From the NCBI GenBank assembly GCA_020725625.1, contig DYET01000033.1, positions 1 to 49,742 of the forward strand: a DNA stretch of 49,742 nucleotides. Direction: 5' to 3'. The notes beneath the pieces were generated by a model that worked only from the letters and a program-made list of their open reading frames with translations, did not search any database and had not been told where the DNA came from. The first letter of the stretch is position 1. Every line of letters starts with the position of its first letter. Shown here piece by piece: positions 28,386 to 35,906 of this stretch. Position numbers and translations under genes: made by a program. The stretch is from Desulfovirgula sp. (GTDB taxonomy: Bacteria; Bacillota; Desulfotomaculia; Desulfotomaculales; Desulfocucumaceae).

Positions 28386-28429
28386 TTAGCAGATAAAAAT
28401 CCGAAGATGAGGGGGTGGATCTTGCCAGG

Positions 28430-28771
28430 ATGGACCTGCAGGTGGAAATAAAGGGCGGGACATTGCTGGCCCGGCTGGCCGGTGAAATCGACCTGGCCGC
28501 GGCCGATACACTGAGAAGTTCCCTGGAAAATGAACTGGACCGGAATCCGGGCGTAAGGCATATCGTGGTAAATTTGGGCGGGGTTAAATACATCGACAGC
28601 TCGGGACTCGGCGTCCTGCTGGGAAGATACCGGCGGTTGTCCAGGGAAGGCGGCGGGATGTTCATCGTGGGAGCGGCGCCGCAGGTGAGAAAGATTTTTC
28701 AAATGTCCGGGCTGCTGGGAATCATGCGGGAGTTTTCCAACGAGGCGGAAGCGATGGATCACGCTGGATAG
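28430..28771 (+). CDS. spoIIAA: Anti-sigma-F factor antagonist SpoIIAA
   Basis: A 113-residue STAS-domain protein. The phosphorylation motif YIDSSGLGVLLGRYR is intact; Ser57 of the ATG form corresponds to Bacillus Ser58. When dephosphorylated it binds SpoIIAB and frees sigma-F in the forespore. ATG 28430 gives a N-terminus close in length to known homologues; GTG 28415 is in frame but has its purine-rich site abutting it. It is first in the spoIIAA-spoIIAB-sigF operon. Confidence 0.92.
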   Translation: MDLQVEIKGGTLLARLAGEIDLAAADTLRSSLENELDRNPGVRHIVVNLGGVKYIDSSGLGVLLGRYRRLSREGGGMFIVGAAPQVRKIFQMSGLLGIMREFSNEAEAMDHAG

Positions 28772-28783
28772 GAGGAGTCTATA

Positions 28784-29242
28784 TTGGAACCGGTCAACAG
28801 GATGAGAGTCGAGTTCACCAGTCTGCCGGCCAACGTGGCCTTTGCCAGGGTAGCCGCAGCCGCCTTCGCCTCACAGCTGGATTTTACCTTAAACGACCTG
28901 GAGGAGATCAAGGTGGCCGTGTCAGAGGCGGTAACCAACGCCATCGTCCACGGCTATGAAAACAGGTCCGACGGTACTGTTGTGATGTCGGTGGAAATAA
29001 GGAAAAATCATCTGGAAATTGTGGTGGAAGACAGCGGGAAGGGCATCGAGGACTTAGAAAAGGCCCTTCAGCCGGCGTATTCTACCGACCCGGAGCGGAT
29101 GGGCCTCGGGTTTGCCTTCATGCAATCCTTTTCCGACAGCCTGCGGGTTGAATCCAGTCCCAACGCCGGGACCAGGGTAACCATGACCAAGGCGTGCAAC
29201 AGGGCGATTTCTTCCCGGCGGGACACTGAGGTGCCTTTTTGA
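28784..29242 (+). CDS. spoIIAB: Anti-sigma-F factor, serine kinase SpoIIAB
   Basis: A 152-residue GHKL-fold ATPase. The N-box is VAVSEAVTNAIVHGY (about 44-58), and the G1 and G2 boxes are VVEDSGKGIED and ERMGLGFAFMQSF. It binds sigma-F and phosphorylates SpoIIAA. TTG 28784 follows AGGAGGAG. The C-terminal ten or so residues (NRAISSRRDTEVPF) extend beyond the usual end. Its TGA overlaps the sigF ATG. Confidence 0.93.
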   Translation: MEPVNRMRVEFTSLPANVAFARVAAAAFASQLDFTLNDLEEIKVAVSEAVTNAIVHGYENRSDGTVVMSVEIRKNHLEIVVEDSGKGIEDLEKALQPAYSTDPERMGLGFAFMQSFSDSLRVESSPNAGTRVTMTKACNRAISSRRDTEVPF

Positions 29243-30066
29243 TGAACTCCAGGCTGATCGAAATGAACTTGCCGCGGTTCCCCCTGCTGGGCGACAAGGA
29301 AATGCGGGAACTGATCAAAAGGGCCCAGGAAGGGGACCGCTGCGCCAGGGACCGCCTGGTGAACTGCAATCTCAAACTTGTCTTCAACCTGGTCAAGAGG
29401 TTCCAGAACCGCGGCTACGACCTGGAAGATCTTTTCCAGATCGGCTGCATAGGCCTGATCAAGGCCATAGACAAATTCGACCTGAAATACGACGTCAAAT
29501 TTTCCACCTACGCCGTACCCATGATCGTGGGGGAAATAAGGCGTTTCTTAAGGGACGACAACCCGGTGAAAATAAGCCGGTCGCTCAAGGAAATGGCCTT
29601 CAAGGTTCAACTGGCCAGGGAAAAGCTGACCGGGAAAATAGGCCGGGAGCCCACAGTGGGTGAGCTGGCGGAAGAAATGGGCATCCAGCGGGAGGAAGTG
29701 GTGGCGGCCATGGAGGCCGCCCAGGCACCCACCTCGATATATGAAACCCTGCACCAGGACGACGGCGACCCGATTTACCTGCTGGACCAGCTGAAGGACG
29801 AGTCGGGAAGCGACACACCGTGGCTGGACCGCCTGGCCGTAAAGGAACTCCTGCAGGTTTTGCCCGAAAGGGACAGGAAGATTCTGATCTGGAGATTTTT
29901 CGAGGACAGGACCCAGGCCGACATCGCTTTCCGGATGGGCCTTTCCCAGGTCCAGATATCCCGCCTGGAAAGGCAAGCCCTGAAAAAAATAAGGGACTTG
30001 CTGAACCCGGCCGGCGGCAGGGAAGTCCGGGAAAACGAGCAGGAAGATAACCAGGCCCCCGGTTAA
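29242..30066 (+). CDS. sigF: RNA polymerase sporulation sigma factor F
   Basis: A 274-residue sigma-70-family factor, forespore-specific. Region 2 contains DLEDLFQIGCIGLIKAIDKF and FSTYAVPMIVGEIRRFLRDD; region 3 contains GREPTVGELAEEMGI; region 4 ends in a helix-turn-helix TQADIAFRMGLSQVQISRLE. ATG 29242 overlaps the spoIIAB stop (TGATG), coupling translation and matching the stoichiometric partner-switch logic. Its last codons and stop lie inside a 19-bp perfect stem (see terminator). About 15 acidic/polar residues follow the HTH. Confidence 0.95.
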   Translation: MNSRLIEMNLPRFPLLGDKEMRELIKRAQEGDRCARDRLVNCNLKLVFNLVKRFQNRGYDLEDLFQIGCIGLIKAIDKFDLKYDVKFSTYAVPMIVGEIRRFLRDDNPVKISRSLKEMAFKVQLAREKLTGKIGREPTVGELAEEMGIQREEVVAAMEAAQAPTSIYETLHQDDGDPIYLLDQLKDESGSDTPWLDRLAVKELLQVLPERDRKILIWRFFEDRTQADIAFRMGLSQVQISRLERQALKKIRDLLNPAGGREVRENEQEDNQAPG

Positions 30067-30086
30067 CGGGGGCCTGGTTATCTTCC
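30042..30086 (+). terminator. 19-bp perfect hairpin across the sigF stop codon
   Basis: The arm at 30042-30060 (starts GGAAGATAACC) is exactly complementary to 30068-30086, leaving a 7-base loop GGTTAAC that contains the TAA stop. It is very stable and ends the spoIIA operon, but the following bases (TATCTTTCCCC) are not a clean T-run. Because ribosomes terminating at TAA would melt the stem, termination could be translation-dependent. Confidence 0.75.
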
Positions 30087-30189
30087 TATCTTTCCCCACA
30101 TTATTTTTATTCGGCTGGGCATAATATCCACCGGAAGGCTCGTAAGCCCATAATTCAAAATGCCAGTTATGACTTAGGAGGGATGTCTG

Positions 30190-30384
30190 ATGCACATCAA
30201 GGTGGCCGAAATGGTAGGCCATTCCCCGGCGGGGTGGAAGGACGCGGTTCAGTCGGCCGTCACCGAGGCCTCGAAGACGCTGAACGAGATTGTGGCGGTA
30301 GAAGTGGTCAATTTTACGGCCAACGTTGAAAACGGCAAAGTAGTGGACTACAAGGCCAATCTCAAAATCGCCCACAAGTCCTGA
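30190..30384 (+). CDS. Dodecin family flavin-binding protein
   Basis: A 64-residue protein of the dodecin fold: VAEMVGHSPAGWKDAVQSAV, then ASKTLNEIVAVEVVNFTANV, then a strand ending VDYKANLKIAHKS. Dodecins form hollow dodecamers that store or buffer riboflavin, FMN or CoA. The Trp in GWKDA is the residue that stacks on the flavin in bacterial dodecins. GGAGGG precedes ATG 30190. It lies between sigF and spoVAE, an unusual place; whether it is forespore-expressed is unknown. Confidence 0.9.
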   Translation: MHIKVAEMVGHSPAGWKDAVQSAVTEASKTLNEIVAVEVVNFTANVENGKVVDYKANLKIAHKS

Positions 30385-30393
30385 ACCGGAACC

Positions 30394-30415
30394 GGAAGGC
30401 CGGGCAAAGCCTTCC
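30394..30415 (+). terminator. Hairpin after the dodecin gene
   Basis: GGAAGGC (30394-30400) pairs with GCCTTCC (30409-30415) around an 8-base loop, just after the stop codon; no T-run follows. Confidence 0.45.
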
Positions 30416-30442
30416 AAAGCCTTGCGACGGGCAGGAACCCGG

Positions 30443-30477
30443 GCCGGAGGGGCACTCCTGGCGGGTGCCCCTCCGGC
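30443..30477 (+). terminator. 13-bp GC-rich hairpin upstream of spoVAE
   Basis: GCCGGAGGGGCAC (30443-30455) is fully complementary to GTGCCCCTCCGGC (30465-30477) with a 9-base loop. Very stable, no T-run. It could insulate spoVAE from upstream transcription or serve as an mRNA 5'-end stabiliser. Confidence 0.55.
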
Positions 30478-30521
30478 GCATACAGCGCAACAGGCAGTGG
30501 GAACCTGTGCTTTAACAGGTG

Positions 30522-31148
30522 ATGGCTGTGGACCGGGCAAAAAACAACCGCCCCCGCACGATGGACGGGCGAAAGAGAAACGTGATCCTGGTCACCGACG
30601 GGGACCCGGTGGCCAAAAAGGCGGTGGAGGCCGCTTCCCGCAACATTGGAGCCAGGTGCATCTCCTGTTCGGCCGGCAACCCCACCGGGCTTACCGGGGA
30701 ACAGCTGCTGGCGGAGATTAAAAAGGCTCCCCACGACCCGGTGGTGGTTATGCTTGACGACAGGGGATTTCTGGGACAGGGAAGAGGGGAGCGGGCGCTG
30801 GAGCACCTGGCTGGGCACCCGGAAATCCGGGTCCTGGGGATGCTGGCCGTGGCGTCAAACACCGAATTTGCAGGGTCGGTGAAGGTGGACTGCTCGGTCA
30901 CCAGCGGGGGAACGGTGACCCCGGCGGCGGTGGATAAAAACGGGCGGGTGGTCCCGGGGCAGGGCCCGTCCCTGTCCGGCGACACCGTGGAGGTACTGGA
31001 CAGGCTTGATGTACCGGTAATAATCGGCATCGGCGACATCGGGAAAATGGGCACGGCAGACAACCCGGGCCTGGGTGCCCCCCTTACCACCAGGGCGCTG
31101 GAAGAAATCTTGCACAGGAGTGGTTTCAATGGCCGTGGAGGCCAATGA
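30522..31148 (+). CDS. spoVAE: Stage V sporulation protein AE (SpoVAEA type)
   Basis: A 208-residue soluble protein. The order NVILVTDGDPVAKKAVEAAS, ARCISCSAGNPTGLTGEQLL, DPVVVMLDDRGFLGQGRGER, VLGMLAVASNTEFA and VIIGIGDIGKMG follows the Bacillus SpoVAEA product closely. SpoVA proteins handle dipicolinic acid movement into the forespore and out at germination; the AEA subunit is peripheral and its exact task is unsettled. ATG 30522 is chosen, GTG 30519 is adjacent. It overlaps spoVAF by 20 bases. The channel genes spoVAC, spoVAD and spoVAEB are not here. Confidence 0.85.
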   Translation: MAVDRAKNNRPRTMDGRKRNVILVTDGDPVAKKAVEAASRNIGARCISCSAGNPTGLTGEQLLAEIKKAPHDPVVVMLDDRGFLGQGRGERALEHLAGHPEIRVLGMLAVASNTEFAGSVKVDCSVTSGGTVTPAAVDKNGRVVPGQGPSLSGDTVEVLDRLDVPVIIGIGDIGKMGTADNPGLGAPLTTRALEEILHRSGFNGRGGQ

Positions 31149-32640
31149 AAGAAAGGCGACCCGGATCAGCAGGAAACTGGATGAAAACATATCCCTGCTG
31201 GAAGAAATGATGTCGATAAAGGAAAATTTCGACGTCATCCTGCGGGAAATGACCATCGGCAACGTGAGAACGGCGCTGCTGTTCATCGACGGCTTGACCA
31301 ACGACCAGACGGTCACCCTGATCCTCCAGGAACTGGTCGACGTAAAGCGGGGCGAACTGTCCCTAAACGCCCTGGACAAGTTAATCGGCCGGCACCTGCC
31401 CTATACCGAAGTGGAAAAGGCGGACAGCCTGGAGGACGCCGTCAGCAAGGTGCTGATGGGGACCCAAGCGCTTTTCATCAACGGCGAGGACAGCGCCGTG
31501 ATTATCGATGCCCGCACCTACCCCTCCCGGCAGCCGGAAGAGCCCGACCTGGAAAAAGTGGTCCGGGGATCCCGGGACGGCTTCGTGGAAACCCTGGTCT
31601 TCAACACCGCCCTAATCCGCAGGCGGATCAGGGACCCCAGGCTGCGCATGGAGGCGCTTCAGGCCGGGGACAGGTCCAAGACCGACGTGGTCATCTGCTA
31701 CATCAAGGACGTGGCCAACCCGCAGCTGGTGGAAAACGTCCGGCGGAACGTCGGGAGGATAAACATCGACGGCCTGCCCATGGCCGAAAAGGCGGTGGAG
31801 GAGCTGATTTCCCCCGGGTCCTACTGGAACCTCTTTCCCAAGGTGAGATACACCGAGCGCCCCGACGTGGCCGCCGTACACCTCCTGGAGGGACATGTGC
31901 TGGTGCTGGTGGACACCTCGCCCTCGGTCATGATCACCCCGGCCACTTACTGGCACCACCTTCAGCACGCCGAGGAATACCGCCAGAGTCCTTCCACGGG
32001 GGTATACATCAGGTGGGTGAGGTTCGCAGGCATCGCCATATCCCTCTTCCTGCTTCCCCTGTGGCTCCTGGTGGTCATGAACCCCGGCCTGATCCCGCCG
32101 GACCTGCGCTTTATCGGCCCCGACAAGCCGGGCAAAGTACCCCTCGTCCTGCAGTTTATAGCCGCGGAGCTGTCGGTGGACATGGTCAGGCTGGCCACCA
32201 TTCACACCCCCAACGCCCTGGCGGCGGGCATCAGCATCATCGCCGCCCTGCTGCTCGGCCAGATTTCCGTGCAGGTGGGGCTCTTTTCGGCGGAAGTGGT
32301 CCTGTACGTGGCCGTCGCCATGATCGGGATATTCCTCACCCCCAGCTACGAACTGGGCTGGTCCAACAGGATTATCCGGCTGTTCCTGATCCTGATGGTT
32401 GCCGCCTTCGGCCTGCCGGGATTCATCGCCGGGTCCCTGCTCTTCACCGGTTATCTCGCCTTTACCAGGTCCTTTGGTGTTCCCTACCTTTGGCCCCTGA
32501 TTCCCTTCAACTGGGCAGCCCTGAAGAACGTGCTGGTGAGAACCCCGGTGCCGGTAAGCAACGTCAGGCCGGCAGTCCTCAAGCCCCTGGACAGGGTAAG
32601 CCAGGGAATCCCCGATCCGGCCCTCAAGCGCGGGAAGTAG
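31129..32640 (+). CDS. spoVAF: Spore germination protein SpoVAF (GerA family)
   Basis: A 503-residue GerA/GerAA-type protein: a long N-terminal cytoplasmic part (about 1-290) and about five membrane helices after about 295 (IAISLFLLPLWLLVVM; later ALAAGISIIAALLLGQISVQ; LFLILMVAAFGLPGFIAGSL). In Bacillus, SpoVAF is dispensable but modulates germination together with FigP. ATG 31129 after AGGAG is used instead of the ORF start at 31075. The Pro-rich GVPYLWPLIPFNW segment near the C-terminus is a family hallmark. The gene is last in its operon. Confidence 0.9.
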   Translation: MAVEANERKATRISRKLDENISLLEEMMSIKENFDVILREMTIGNVRTALLFIDGLTNDQTVTLILQELVDVKRGELSLNALDKLIGRHLPYTEVEKADSLEDAVSKVLMGTQALFINGEDSAVIIDARTYPSRQPEEPDLEKVVRGSRDGFVETLVFNTALIRRRIRDPRLRMEALQAGDRSKTDVVICYIKDVANPQLVENVRRNVGRINIDGLPMAEKAVEELISPGSYWNLFPKVRYTERPDVAAVHLLEGHVLVLVDTSPSVMITPATYWHHLQHAEEYRQSPSTGVYIRWVRFAGIAISLFLLPLWLLVVMNPGLIPPDLRFIGPDKPGKVPLVLQFIAAELSVDMVRLATIHTPNALAAGISIIAALLLGQISVQVGLFSAEVVLYVAVAMIGIFLTPSYELGWSNRIIRLFLILMVAAFGLPGFIAGSLLFTGYLAFTRSFGVPYLWPLIPFNWAALKNVLVRTPVPVSNVRPAVLKPLDRVSQGIPDPALKRGK

Positions 32641-32836
32641 CCTTTTCTTTTAAACTCCTTCCCCCGGCACGAGAATTACCCTTATTTGGTTCGCCACATT
32701 TTCCCAATCTATTTAACAAGATAAAAGACCGTTGATACATACTTCGCCAACGGCCCCGGCCCGGCCCGTCAGGGGCTCCTTCGCGCCAAGTATAACCCGG
32801 CTGCAAATTTGACCATAATATTGCAGGAGGGTGAAA

Positions 32837-33814
32837 ATGACGGTAAAGATTGGTATTCCCAGATCGCTTCTCTTTTACTATTATTACCCGTTATGGAAAA
32901 CCTTTTTTGAAGGCCTGGGGGCCGAGGTTACGGTCACCGGCCCCAGCACCAAGGCTGTCCTTGAGGAGGGGCTGGGGCTGTGCGTAGATGAGGCCTGCCT
33001 GCCCGTAAAGGTCGCCTTCGGCCACGTGGCGGCCCTCAGGGGAAAGGTGGACTTTATTTTCGTCCCCAGGCTGGTCAGCGTTTTCCCCCGGGAGTATATC
33101 TGCCCCAAGTTTCTGGGCTTCCCCGACATGGTGCGCAGCTGCGTCGGCGGCCTGCCGGGTCTTATAGACATTAACATAAACCTTTACCGCCGGGAAAAAG
33201 ACCTGTACCGGCAACTTCGGGAGGCCGCCTCCCCTTTCTGCCGGAACCCTTTAAGGATAGCCGCCGCCTTCGGAGAGGCGCTGGCCGAACACAGGCGCTT
33301 CACCGAAAGGTTGGAGGCCGGGATGCTGCCCGACGACGCCTTCGGGGACCGGGAAGTGGCGGGCGGAAAACCGGGCGGGGAAAACTGGACGGTGGCGCTG
33401 GTCGGCCACCCGTACAACATATACGACAGCTTCATCAACCTTAACATAATCAAGCGGATCCGGGAAGCAAGGATGAACGTGGTCACCGCCGACAATGTGC
33501 CCGGTCCGGTGGTCGACAGATACGCCGGCACCCTAAGCAAGCGTCTTTTCTGGACCCTGGGCAGAAGGATGGTGGGTTCGGCCTATTACTTCATGGATAA
33601 CCCGGCCATTGACGGGATTATCCACGTCGCGTCCTTTGCCTGCGGGCCCGACTCCATGACCGGGGAACTGATTCAAAGGAGGGCCCGCCGCACCGGCACG
33701 CCATTTTTGAGCCTGACCCTGGACGAGCACGCCGGAGAGGCCGGAATAGTAACCAGAATAGAGGCCTTCCTGGACATGGTGGCCATGAAGAGTGAACTGT
33801 CAACCCTATCCTAA
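32837..33814 (+). CDS. DUF2229-type CoA-dehydratase-activase-related protein, paralogue A
   Basis: A 325-residue soluble protein of the 2-hydroxyacyl-CoA dehydratase-related fold (DUF2229). Conserved cysteines stand in LCVDEACLPVK (about 52-62), FPREYICPKFLGFPDM and FACGPDSM, candidates for iron-sulfur ligation. The end DEHAGEAGIVTRIEAFLDM recurs almost unchanged in the next gene (DEQSGDAGLQTRIEAFVDL), so the two are paralogues. ATG 32837 follows AGGAGGG; GTG 32831 is also in frame. In many genomes this domain is fused to the activase encoded two genes downstream. The real substrate is unknown. Confidence 0.75.
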   Translation: MTVKIGIPRSLLFYYYYPLWKTFFEGLGAEVTVTGPSTKAVLEEGLGLCVDEACLPVKVAFGHVAALRGKVDFIFVPRLVSVFPREYICPKFLGFPDMVRSCVGGLPGLIDININLYRREKDLYRQLREAASPFCRNPLRIAAAFGEALAEHRRFTERLEAGMLPDDAFGDREVAGGKPGGENWTVALVGHPYNIYDSFINLNIIKRIREARMNVVTADNVPGPVVDRYAGTLSKRLFWTLGRRMVGSAYYFMDNPAIDGIIHVASFACGPDSMTGELIQRRARRTGTPFLSLTLDEHAGEAGIVTRIEAFLDMVAMKSELSTLS

Positions 33815-33837
33815 CCCGAAACGGAGGCTTTTAGGCC

Positions 33838-34932
33838 GTGAAAGTGACCTTTCCGCACATGGGAAACCTCTGGATTTGCCTTGAGGCCATGCTGGAATAC
33901 CTGGGGGTGGAGACCGTGGTTCCCCCGCCTTCCACCAAAAAGACCCTTTCCCTGGGTTCCAAGCACGCCCCGGAGTTCGCCTGCATGCCGCTGAAGCTGA
34001 ACCTTGGCAACTTCATGGAGGCGAGCGATTTGGGAGCGGACACCATACTTATGGCCGGCGGCTGCGGCCCCTGCAGGTTCGGCTACTACGCCCAGGTTGA
34101 ATACGAAATCCTGTGTGACCTGGGCTACCGGTACAGCCTGGTGGTGATGGAACCTCCCGAGAGACACATCAGCGAGTTTCTGGCCAGGATCAGGCAGATT
34201 ACCGGGAACCGTTCCTGGCTGGAAGTGATTCGCGGGATTAAGTTCGGATACCAAAAAGCCAGGGCGGTGGACGGCCTGGAAATGACGGCCATGCGCCTCA
34301 GGCCCAGAGAAATAGACCCCGGCAGTACGGACGCGGCACTGTCCGCGGCCCTGGAAGAAATTGCCGGGGCCCGGCGGCCGGAAGACCTCCCGCCGGCTAT
34401 CGGGCGGGCCCGGGAAATAATGGGGGGAGTACCCGTCGAAGACCGCCCCGTGATCAGGGTGGGCCTGGTGGGTGAAATATATACCGTTCTGGAGCCATTC
34501 GCCAACCTGGAGATCGAAAAAAAGCTCGGCCGCCTGGGAGTCGAGGTCGACCGGTCGATCTACCTAAGCGAGTGGATCAACGACCATCTTTTTATGGGCC
34601 TGATCAGGGGCATGCGCAGCAGCAGCCTGTATAAAAAGTCGGCCTCCCCGTACCTGAGGCACTTCGTGGGCGGGCACGGCCTGGAGACCATGGGCGGCGC
34701 CGTCTACTACAACAGCCTGGGATATGACGGGGTAATCCAAATTCTGCCCTTCACCTGTATGCCGGAGATAGTCGCCCAGAGCATACTTCCCGGTTTCAGC
34801 CGGGACACCGGAATGCCGGTGATTACCCTGATCTCTGACGAGCAGTCCGGCGACGCCGGCCTCCAAACCAGGATCGAGGCCTTCGTGGACCTGCTGGCGG
34901 AAAAAAAACGGAGAAAGGAGTGGTCGGCCTGA
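33838..34932 (+). CDS. DUF2229-type CoA-dehydratase-activase-related protein, paralogue B
   Basis: A 364-residue relative of the preceding protein. Notable cysteines: EFACMPLKL (about 48), GGCGPCRFGYY (about 78-81) and PFTCMPEIVAQS (about 303); the CGPC pair is characteristic of this half of the family. It shares a closing DEQSGDAGLQTRIEAFVDL with paralogue A. GTG 33838 is the assumed start, 23 bases after the previous stop. Its stop overlaps the activase ATG (TGATG). Probably forms a complex with A and the activase. Confidence 0.75.
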   Translation: MKVTFPHMGNLWICLEAMLEYLGVETVVPPPSTKKTLSLGSKHAPEFACMPLKLNLGNFMEASDLGADTILMAGGCGPCRFGYYAQVEYEILCDLGYRYSLVVMEPPERHISEFLARIRQITGNRSWLEVIRGIKFGYQKARAVDGLEMTAMRLRPREIDPGSTDAALSAALEEIAGARRPEDLPPAIGRAREIMGGVPVEDRPVIRVGLVGEIYTVLEPFANLEIEKKLGRLGVEVDRSIYLSEWINDHLFMGLIRGMRSSSLYKKSASPYLRHFVGGHGLETMGGAVYYNSLGYDGVIQILPFTCMPEIVAQSILPGFSRDTGMPVITLISDEQSGDAGLQTRIEAFVDLLAEKKRRKEWSA

Positions 34933-35906
34933 TGATCGGCTTTTTGGGTTTGGACGTGGGATCAGTAAGCACCAACCTGGTTTTACTGAATGAAGAGGGC
35001 CGGGTGTTGAAGTCGGTCTACCTGCGCACCAGCGGCCGCCCCATCGCCGCCCTGCAGAAGGGGCTGAGGCAGCTTTGCGGTCTCCTGCCGGCAAAGACCG
35101 CCATCAGGGGGGTGGGGGCCACCGGCAGCGGCAGGCACCTGGCCGGGATTATCGCCGGGGCCGACGTGGTCAAAAACGAAATCACCTCCCACGCCGCGGC
35201 GGCCTACAGGCTCGTCCCGGGAGTAAGGACCGTTCTCGAGATCGGGGGCCAGGACTCCAAGATAATCATCATCAGGAACGGCGTGGTGGTTGACTTCGCC
35301 ATGAACACGGTCTGCGCCGCGGGCACCGGATCCTTCCTGGACCAGCAGGCAGCCAGGCTGAACATAAAAATAGAGGACTTCGGCAAAGCGGCCCTGAAGT
35401 CCGCGGCCCCCGTCAGGATTGCCGGAAGGTGCGCGGTATTCGCGGAATCCGACATGATCCACAAGCAGCAGATGGGGTACGACCTGCCGGATATACTGGC
35501 CGGGCTCTGCGAGGCGCTGGTCAGGAACTACCTCAACAATGTGGGCAAGGGCAAGGACATTTCGGACCCGGTGGTGTTCCAGGGCGGGGTGGCCGCCAAC
35601 CAGGGGATGAAGGCGGCCTTCGAGCGGGCGCTGCAAACGGAAGTGATCATTCCGCCTCACTTCGACGTCATGGGCGCGGTGGGCGCGGCCATGCTGGCCA
35701 GGGATTACGTATCGAGGGGAATCCCCACCAAGTTCAAGGGCTTCGGCGCCGCCGAAACAGACTTCCGGGCCGGAAGCTTCGAGTGCGACGGCTGTCCCAA
35801 CCTTTGCGAGGTGGTGGAAATCAAGGAGGAGGGACGTGTCATCGCCCGCTGGGGGGACCGGTGCGGCAGGTGGTCGATCCGGGTGGCCAGGGAAAAAATA
35901 AGCTGA
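34932..35906 (+). CDS. Acyl-CoA dehydratase activase-type ATPase (BadF/BadG/BcrA/BcrD/HgdC family)
   Basis: About 324 residues of the ASKHA ATPase fold. Phosphate-1 motif GFLGLDVGSVSTNLVLL, then ATGSGRHLAGII, LEIGGQDSKIIII, and the cluster-bearing loop VCAAGTGSFLDQQA plus GRCAVFAESDMIHKQQ, whose two cysteines would bind one [4Fe-4S] between two monomers as in HgdC. A C-terminal extension carries CDGCPNLCEV, absent in the shortest HgdC. Such proteins use ATP to lower the potential of one electron before passing it to a dehydratase or reductase. No dehydratase genes lie in the window. ATG 34932 is used because it overlaps the upstream stop; GTG 34920 lacks a ribosome site. Confidence 0.85.
   Translation: MIGFLGLDVGSVSTNLVLLNEEGRVLKSVYLRTSGRPIAALQKGLRQLCGLLPAKTAIRGVGATGSGRHLAGIIAGADVVKNEITSHAAAAYRLVPGVRTVLEIGGQDSKIIIIRNGVVVDFAMNTVCAAGTGSFLDQQAARLNIKIEDFGKAALKSAAPVRIAGRCAVFAESDMIHKQQMGYDLPDILAGLCEALVRNYLNNVGKGKDISDPVVFQGGVAANQGMKAAFERALQTEVIIPPHFDVMGAVGAAMLARDYVSRGIPTKFKGFGAAETDFRAGSFECDGCPNLCEVVEIKEEGRVIARWGDRCGRWSIRVAREKIS

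Follow-up and report, generated by a model that had tools for sequence, protein, structure and literature searches.

What is a predicted ATP-driven reductase doing directly behind the spoVA genes of a spore former? The question is raised by three genes at 32837-35906 of a 49,742-nucleotide stretch of Desulfovirgula sp. DNA (contig DYET01000033.1; hereafter the window), which encode two DUF2229 proteins, P1 (32837..33814) and P2 (33838..34932), and a BadF/HgdC-type ATPase, or activase, P3 (34920..35906). The open reading frames (ORFs) all lie on the forward strand and almost overlap. P1 starts at ATG 32837, preceded on the same strand by a ribosome-binding site recognised by its sequence (AGGAGG, 32826..32831) and kept in relatives; for P3, ATG 34932 within the P2 stop (TGATG) is a likelier start than 34920, the end being 35906. 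RNA folding of the 196-nucleotide leader is unremarkable (z -0.05). An original prediction had described these co-directional genes, on which ORFs and Pfam agree, as an activase machine with no dehydratase and a missing electron acceptor, perhaps a self-contained, uncharacterised reductase. Our analysis, whose computed basis is fold, cysteines, gene order, promoter motif and clade split, indicates that the triad probably encodes an entire ATP-driven iron-sulfur reductase, made of two components and dedicated to the development of endospores.

Pfam places DUF2229 in P1 (1.1e-50, 172.7 bits) and in P2 (3.1e-10, 40.5 bits), the curated cut-off being 29.4 bits, finds HGD-D at the P1 C-terminus (1.8e-7, above its curated cut-off) and assigns BcrAD_BadFG to P3 (1.4e-50, 172.8 bits, cut-off 31.5). 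The C-terminal block DExxGxAGxxTRIEAF, which the original prediction had seen in both upstream proteins, is fitted exactly by P1 (DEHAGEAGIVTRIEAF) and by P2 (DEQSGDAGLQTRIEAF), and BLASTP (6e-19) and profile-profile comparison (1.4e-36) also relate the two, which are by these measures true paralogues. Their cysteine sets are distinct, as had been noticed: in alignments of 80-82 homologues exactly three are invariant in each protein, namely C56, C91 and C271 in P1 (counted from GTG 32831) and C49, C79 and C307 in P2.

AlphaFold models of both are confident (predicted local distance difference test, pLDDT, 94.6 for P1 and 92.0 for P2), and the top solved structures retrieved with them by Foldseek from the PDB are DCCP, the 2-hydroxyisocaproyl-coenzyme A (CoA) dehydratase HadBC and the benzoyl-CoA reductases BzdNO and MbdON, at 1e-5 to 9e-11. 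Template modelling (TM) scores against these matches are ~0.45-0.6, so that the fold appears to be common and the domain arrangement to have diverged. In profile alignments with the genome's own HGD-D proteins, C49 of P2 falls on the first cluster-ligand position, and C307 of P2 and C271 of P1 both fall on the third; the alignment of the second cysteine is ambiguous, with an offset of three residues in P2. Searching the PDB by sequence only with the P2 profile gave no match, and neither P1 nor P2 matched the NCBIfam dehydratase-component models. Because of the predicted dehydratase/reductase fold, the 3+3 invariant cysteines and the HGD-D match above cut-off, P1 and P2 are assigned as the acceptor (dehydratase/reductase) component of the machine. 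The claims that a dehydratase and an electron acceptor are missing hence have to be withdrawn, and what stands of the earlier interpretation is a self-contained, uncharacterised reductase that would be ATP-driven and work at low potential.

P3 is, by its profile, an ASKHA ATPase and a member of the HgdC-type acyl-CoA dehydratase activase family (NCBIfam TIGR00241, 193 bits, cut-off 125.4), and its structural-database matches are HgdC (1hux), MbdQ, HadI (4eht) and DCCP-R. The cluster cysteines C132 and C171, as well as C289, C292, C296 and C315 in an extra 60-residue tail, are invariant in ~80 homologues, which bears out the cluster loop and tail first described (the P3 alignment begins at 34935, its residue numbers being 5 below those used here). 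Fusion of the same parts into one giant protein elsewhere was likewise recovered: the fused homologues, of ~1,409-1,481 residues, follow the order activase-activase-four-cysteine tail-P1-P2, and all twelve cysteines (3+3+2+4) of the split forms are kept in 11 of them. Since such a polypeptide holds two activase domains, that is, an activase dimer, with one tail, one P1 and one P2, the split form would be an activase2:P1:P2 complex. These large DUF2229 proteins (COG1924-COG3580/3581 type) share domains and cysteines with the triad and differ from it in being single polypeptides, in having no recurrent partner among their genomic neighbours and in occurring also in genomes without SpoVAD. Two loci (L175, L225) are intermediate between split and fully fused, with a P1-P2 fusion of ~720-735 residues and a separate P3.

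Among characterised systems, DCCP/DCCP-R of Carboxydothermus (PDB 6eno, 7yyl) resembles the triad in that DCCP is the top Foldseek match of both P1 and P2, the P1 C-terminus with its third cysteine matches DCCP by sequence and P3 matches DCCP-R. However, DCCP is the product of one gene whereas P1 and P2 come from two divergent ones, the four-cysteine tail of P3 is extra with respect to DCCP-R, and the NCBIfam equivalog NF040772 matches neither P1 nor P2 at E 0.001.

By analogy with the established families HgdC/HgdAB and DCCP-R/DCCP, P3 would be an HgdC-type ATPase that forms a homodimer and holds one [4Fe-4S] cluster where the two subunits meet, and its four-cysteine tail may bind a second cluster at which electrons enter from ferredoxin or flavodoxin. 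Binding and hydrolysis of ATP would lower the potential of the P3 cluster, and single electrons at very low potential would pass into a P1:P2 heterodimer, whose 3+3 cysteines may hold two cubanes or one double cubane and which would reduce the final acceptor. We infer complex stoichiometry, cluster types, electron path and, as set out below, forespore location.

Could the triad, then, be a classical 2-hydroxyacyl-CoA dehydratase or a benzoyl-CoA-type reductase that acts on a CoA thioester in the spore? Fold and three-cysteine pattern per subunit are alike, and the HGD-D match points the same way; HgdAB/HgdC and HadBC/HadI (PDB 1hux, 4eht) have a heteromeric acceptor and an HgdC-type activase, and in BzdNOPQ and MbdONPQ (PDB 8s02, 9gai) activase and acceptor subunits act as one enzyme. 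However, the triad subunits are shorter than those of the dehydratases, are permanently fused in relatives and stand in a spore operon context. CoA transferase, ligase and beta-oxidation genes are absent among the conserved neighbours (neighbour clusters, 82 loci), and no aromatic degradation genes lie near the triad. In addition to the lack of dehydratase-component matches, P3 reaches at most 115 bits against benzoyl-CoA reductase subunit models with NCBIfam cut-offs of 312-578, to which P1 and P2 have no match, and the window's genome has separate dehydratase-type subunits elsewhere. We consider a CoA-thioester enzyme unlikely, if by no means far-fetched. On another contig of this genome (C175, locus L176) four genes lie together, two for HGD-D and two for BcrAD proteins; they resemble BzdNOPQ/MbdONPQ and are all below every equivalog cut-off tested.

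As for what the reductase would reduce, a general anaerobic substrate is a better candidate than a catabolic CoA ester, because the fused members lack conserved neighbours and a clade of the family occurs in genomes without SpoVAD. Tentatively, and with rather more doubt than for the reductase itself, the acceptor could be an oxidised cofactor or metalloenzyme that strict anaerobes have to keep in the reduced state, or to reactivate, in order to stay dormant or to germinate, and not a catabolic CoA thioester.

The decisive context, missed in the original prediction, is given by the genome sequence around the triad, which stands at the tail of the spoVA operon and has a sigma-G-type promoter. 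In the loci of the 80 nearest P2 relatives, wherever the upstream sequence is long enough, the triad almost always comes after spoVA genes; this holds in Desulfotomaculia, Moorella, Heliobacterium, Carboxydothermus, Thermincola, Orenia, Natroniella and Desulfosporosinus. To avoid sampling near kin only, 91 genomes spread over the phylum were searched. Full-length P2 and SpoVAD are both present in 65, and in 41 of these P2 lies downstream of SpoVAD and co-directional with it, within 8 kb in 39; all 41 P2 genes near SpoVAD have this arrangement, with no opposite-strand case. Linkage of P2 to SpoVAD or SpoIIAB is found in 49/65 genomes, and with six more loci where spoVAEb, spoVAEa or spoVAF directly adjoins, 55/65 have a spo neighbour; for scale, SpoVAD and SpoIIAB are themselves linked in 49/79 genomes. 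By gene order, hence, the triad forms the end of the forespore spoVA operon throughout a phylum. It resembles the genes of this operon (dipicolinate transport, forespore, sigma-G) in lying directly after spoVAC-D-Eb-Ea-F, in the same direction and with its own sigma-G-type promoter. The operon differs in the Bacillus subtilis control genome, which has no counterpart of P1-P3 (PF09989 search without match). At two loci (L165, L171) the triad is placed between spoVAEa and a spoVAF-like gene, not after the latter, and a metagenome-assembled genome labelled Deltaproteobacteria (L029) has a Pelotomaculum-like spoVA-triad locus, probably from a misassigned bin.

Concerning the promoter, the Bacillus sigma-G consensus is GHATR-N17/18-CATNHTA. 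The predicted forespore promoter of the window, GTATA-N19-CATAATA at 32790..32820 on the forward strand, directly before P1, is aligned and kept in three relatives within a near-invariant block (GYATAACC...CCATAATATTG) and no other site of the window, on either strand, fits GHATR-N17..19-CATWHTA at 12/12. In Clostridioides difficile the sigma-G consensus is reported to be very similar to that of Bacillus, and spoVA expression depends on sigma-G (PMC3789822). An initial scan with spacers 16-18 showed no excess over background, and the range was widened to 19 after the alignment of the relatives had been viewed, which makes the match post hoc for the window site. With the wider range, perfect sites occur in 10/76 upstream regions (0.08% in shuffles, 0.6% in random windows), eight of the ten with spacer 18, the window and its nearest relative (L005) with spacer 19. 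Sites of at least 11/12 precede the triad at 21/51 loci with a gap of at least 50 nucleotides or no upstream spo gene and at 0/25 with a shorter gap (Fisher 6e-5, several loci being close relatives). Control genes of those loci have such sites in 0/48, 0/25, 3/37 and 2/26 cases, and the stretch ahead of the first spoVA gene, taken as positive control, in 16/54. In the phylum sample, triads that tightly abut the preceding gene have their own promoter of at least 11/12 in only 2/36 cases, as co-transcription predicts. By position and predicted promoter the triad would belong to the spoVA operon and sigma-G regulon, from which we infer forespore expression. Sigma-G would drive its production in the forespore along with that of the SpoVA dipicolinate channel, and the enzyme would thus be packaged in the spore core.

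The phylogeny of the family agrees with this assignment. A tree of 121 P2 proteins contains two clades with 99% local support on each side: clade A, of 104 rows, 82 with spoVA neighbours, and clade B, of 17 rows, none with such neighbours. The genome of the window has a second triad, in clade B (L085:9802-12926, contig C70); its neighbours include minC and malQ but no spo gene, and its best sigma-G-type match is 9/12. A survey of clade-B neighbours gave no recurrent partner. Split P2 occurs without SpoVAD in three genomes (G022, G024, G076), and all three copies are clade B; in a further genome (G042), with SpoVAD present and no SpoIIAB above cut-off, the P2 copy sits on a long branch of clade A. 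Split P2 is found in 64/79 genomes with both SpoVAD and SpoIIAB versus 4/12 others, a difference (Fisher 0.0014) that is only indicative because the sampled genomes are related.

It should be noted that several observations weigh against a dedicated spore enzyme. Of the 79 genomes in which SpoVAD and SpoIIAB are both present, 15 lack a split P2; some ten copies of clade A stand without a spo gene beside them although the sequence upstream is long enough to show one; and the window spacer, at 19, exceeds the usual 17-18 by one. Non-spore-formers, too, have fused and clade-B forms, so the chemistry is not spore-specific. At five loci (L138, L140, L150, L154, L155) the spoVA-linked P1-P2 pair has no adjoining P3, which may then act from elsewhere. 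Some of these genomes carry P3 in an unlinked second triad, which suggests a shared activase.

In a second alternative, the spoVA neighbourhood is a frozen ancestral gene order and the triad an ordinary vegetative anaerobic enzyme located between spoVAF and lysA. In agreement with it, lysA, trpB-like and other housekeeping genes also recur as neighbours, and the fused and clade-B forms operate in cells without spores. A merely inherited order would, however, leave several features aside: the triad has its own sigma-G-type site when separated from the preceding gene and none when directly adjoining it, the neighbouring control genes largely lack such sites, and the copies of the Desulforamulus group that are detached from the spoVA locus (L025, L026) retain a perfect one. 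The bond with spoVA moreover survives in Desulfosporosinus, where the spoIIA-sigF operon is inverted, and where lysA is lost, and the spoVA-linked clade was not found in the SpoVAD-lacking genomes. We regard a frozen order as quite improbable.

That the triad is an activase machine with its acceptor encoded elsewhere, as first proposed, is very unlikely: the separation of P3 from P1-P2 at some loci does imply that parts can act in trans, but the acceptor fold and the cysteines for its clusters are present in P1 and P2 themselves, and the fused forms have no conserved neighbour. Finally, an enzyme acting on dipicolinate, the SpoVA cargo, or an adduct of it, for example by ring reduction, would fit the co-location with the channel genes and the fact that benzoyl-CoA reductase relatives reduce aromatic rings, but close homologues occur in genomes without SpoVAD, and we find it scarcely credible.

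Returning to the window, the order upstream of the triad is dacF-spoIIAA-spoIIAB-sigF, then spoVAEa-spoVAF, the genes given below with coordinates being all on the forward strand. The sigF operon starts with spoIIAA (28415..28771; assigned from its place and sequence without a curated model; cluster kept in 29 loci), continues with spoIIAB, the anti-sigma F factor (28784..29242; NCBIfam TIGR01925, 193.7 bits, cut-off 135), and then has the ORF of the forespore sigma factor sigF (29239..30066; kept after spoIIAB in 31 loci). There follow spoVAEa (30519..31148; Pfam SpoVAE 3.1e-72, NCBIfam NF052647 above cut-off) and the GerA-type spoVAF (31075..32640; Pfam GerA 1.7e-160), the last spoVA gene before the triad, a position kept in 50 loci. 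From 30067 to 30518, between sigF and spoVAEa, spoVAC-D-Eb are absent, the SpoVAD of this genome being on contig C136, and five relatives (L012, L013, L019, L021, L031) likewise have triad surroundings without them. The same interval holds a 64-residue dodecin gene (30190-30384) with a flavin-binding fold, a further redox-cofactor gene at the spore locus, which has homologues in the corresponding position in about ten relatives.

In the open-licence literature we found no work linking spoVA with an activase, although earlier notice elsewhere is possible, and DUF2229 is mentioned by a single paper, in passing; papers on selenium and on methyltransferases in which activases appear turned out to have no bearing on the triad.

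Most of what is understood of endospores comes from Bacillus. An enzyme conserved in the forespore operon for dipicolinate transport, as found in most of the anaerobic spore formers sampled, would fill a gap in the spore programme of anaerobes, and DUF2229 gains a predicted fold, a proposed complex architecture and a first physiological lead. The chances seem to us about even that anaerobic endospore formers equip their spores with a dedicated, nitrogenase-like reductase that is driven by ATP, works at low potential, is co-made with SpoVA under sigma-G and represents the spore-specific branch of an uncharacterised family. If true, this would be the first known redox enzyme system of the core spore programme in Clostridia, and it might restore oxidised iron-sulfur or cofactor systems at germination. 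The triad thus suggests an undescribed redox step in the making or waking of anaerobic spores, and is relevant to the question of how anaerobes that are sensitive to oxygen preserve their low-potential chemistry, or regain it, over a period of oxic dormancy.

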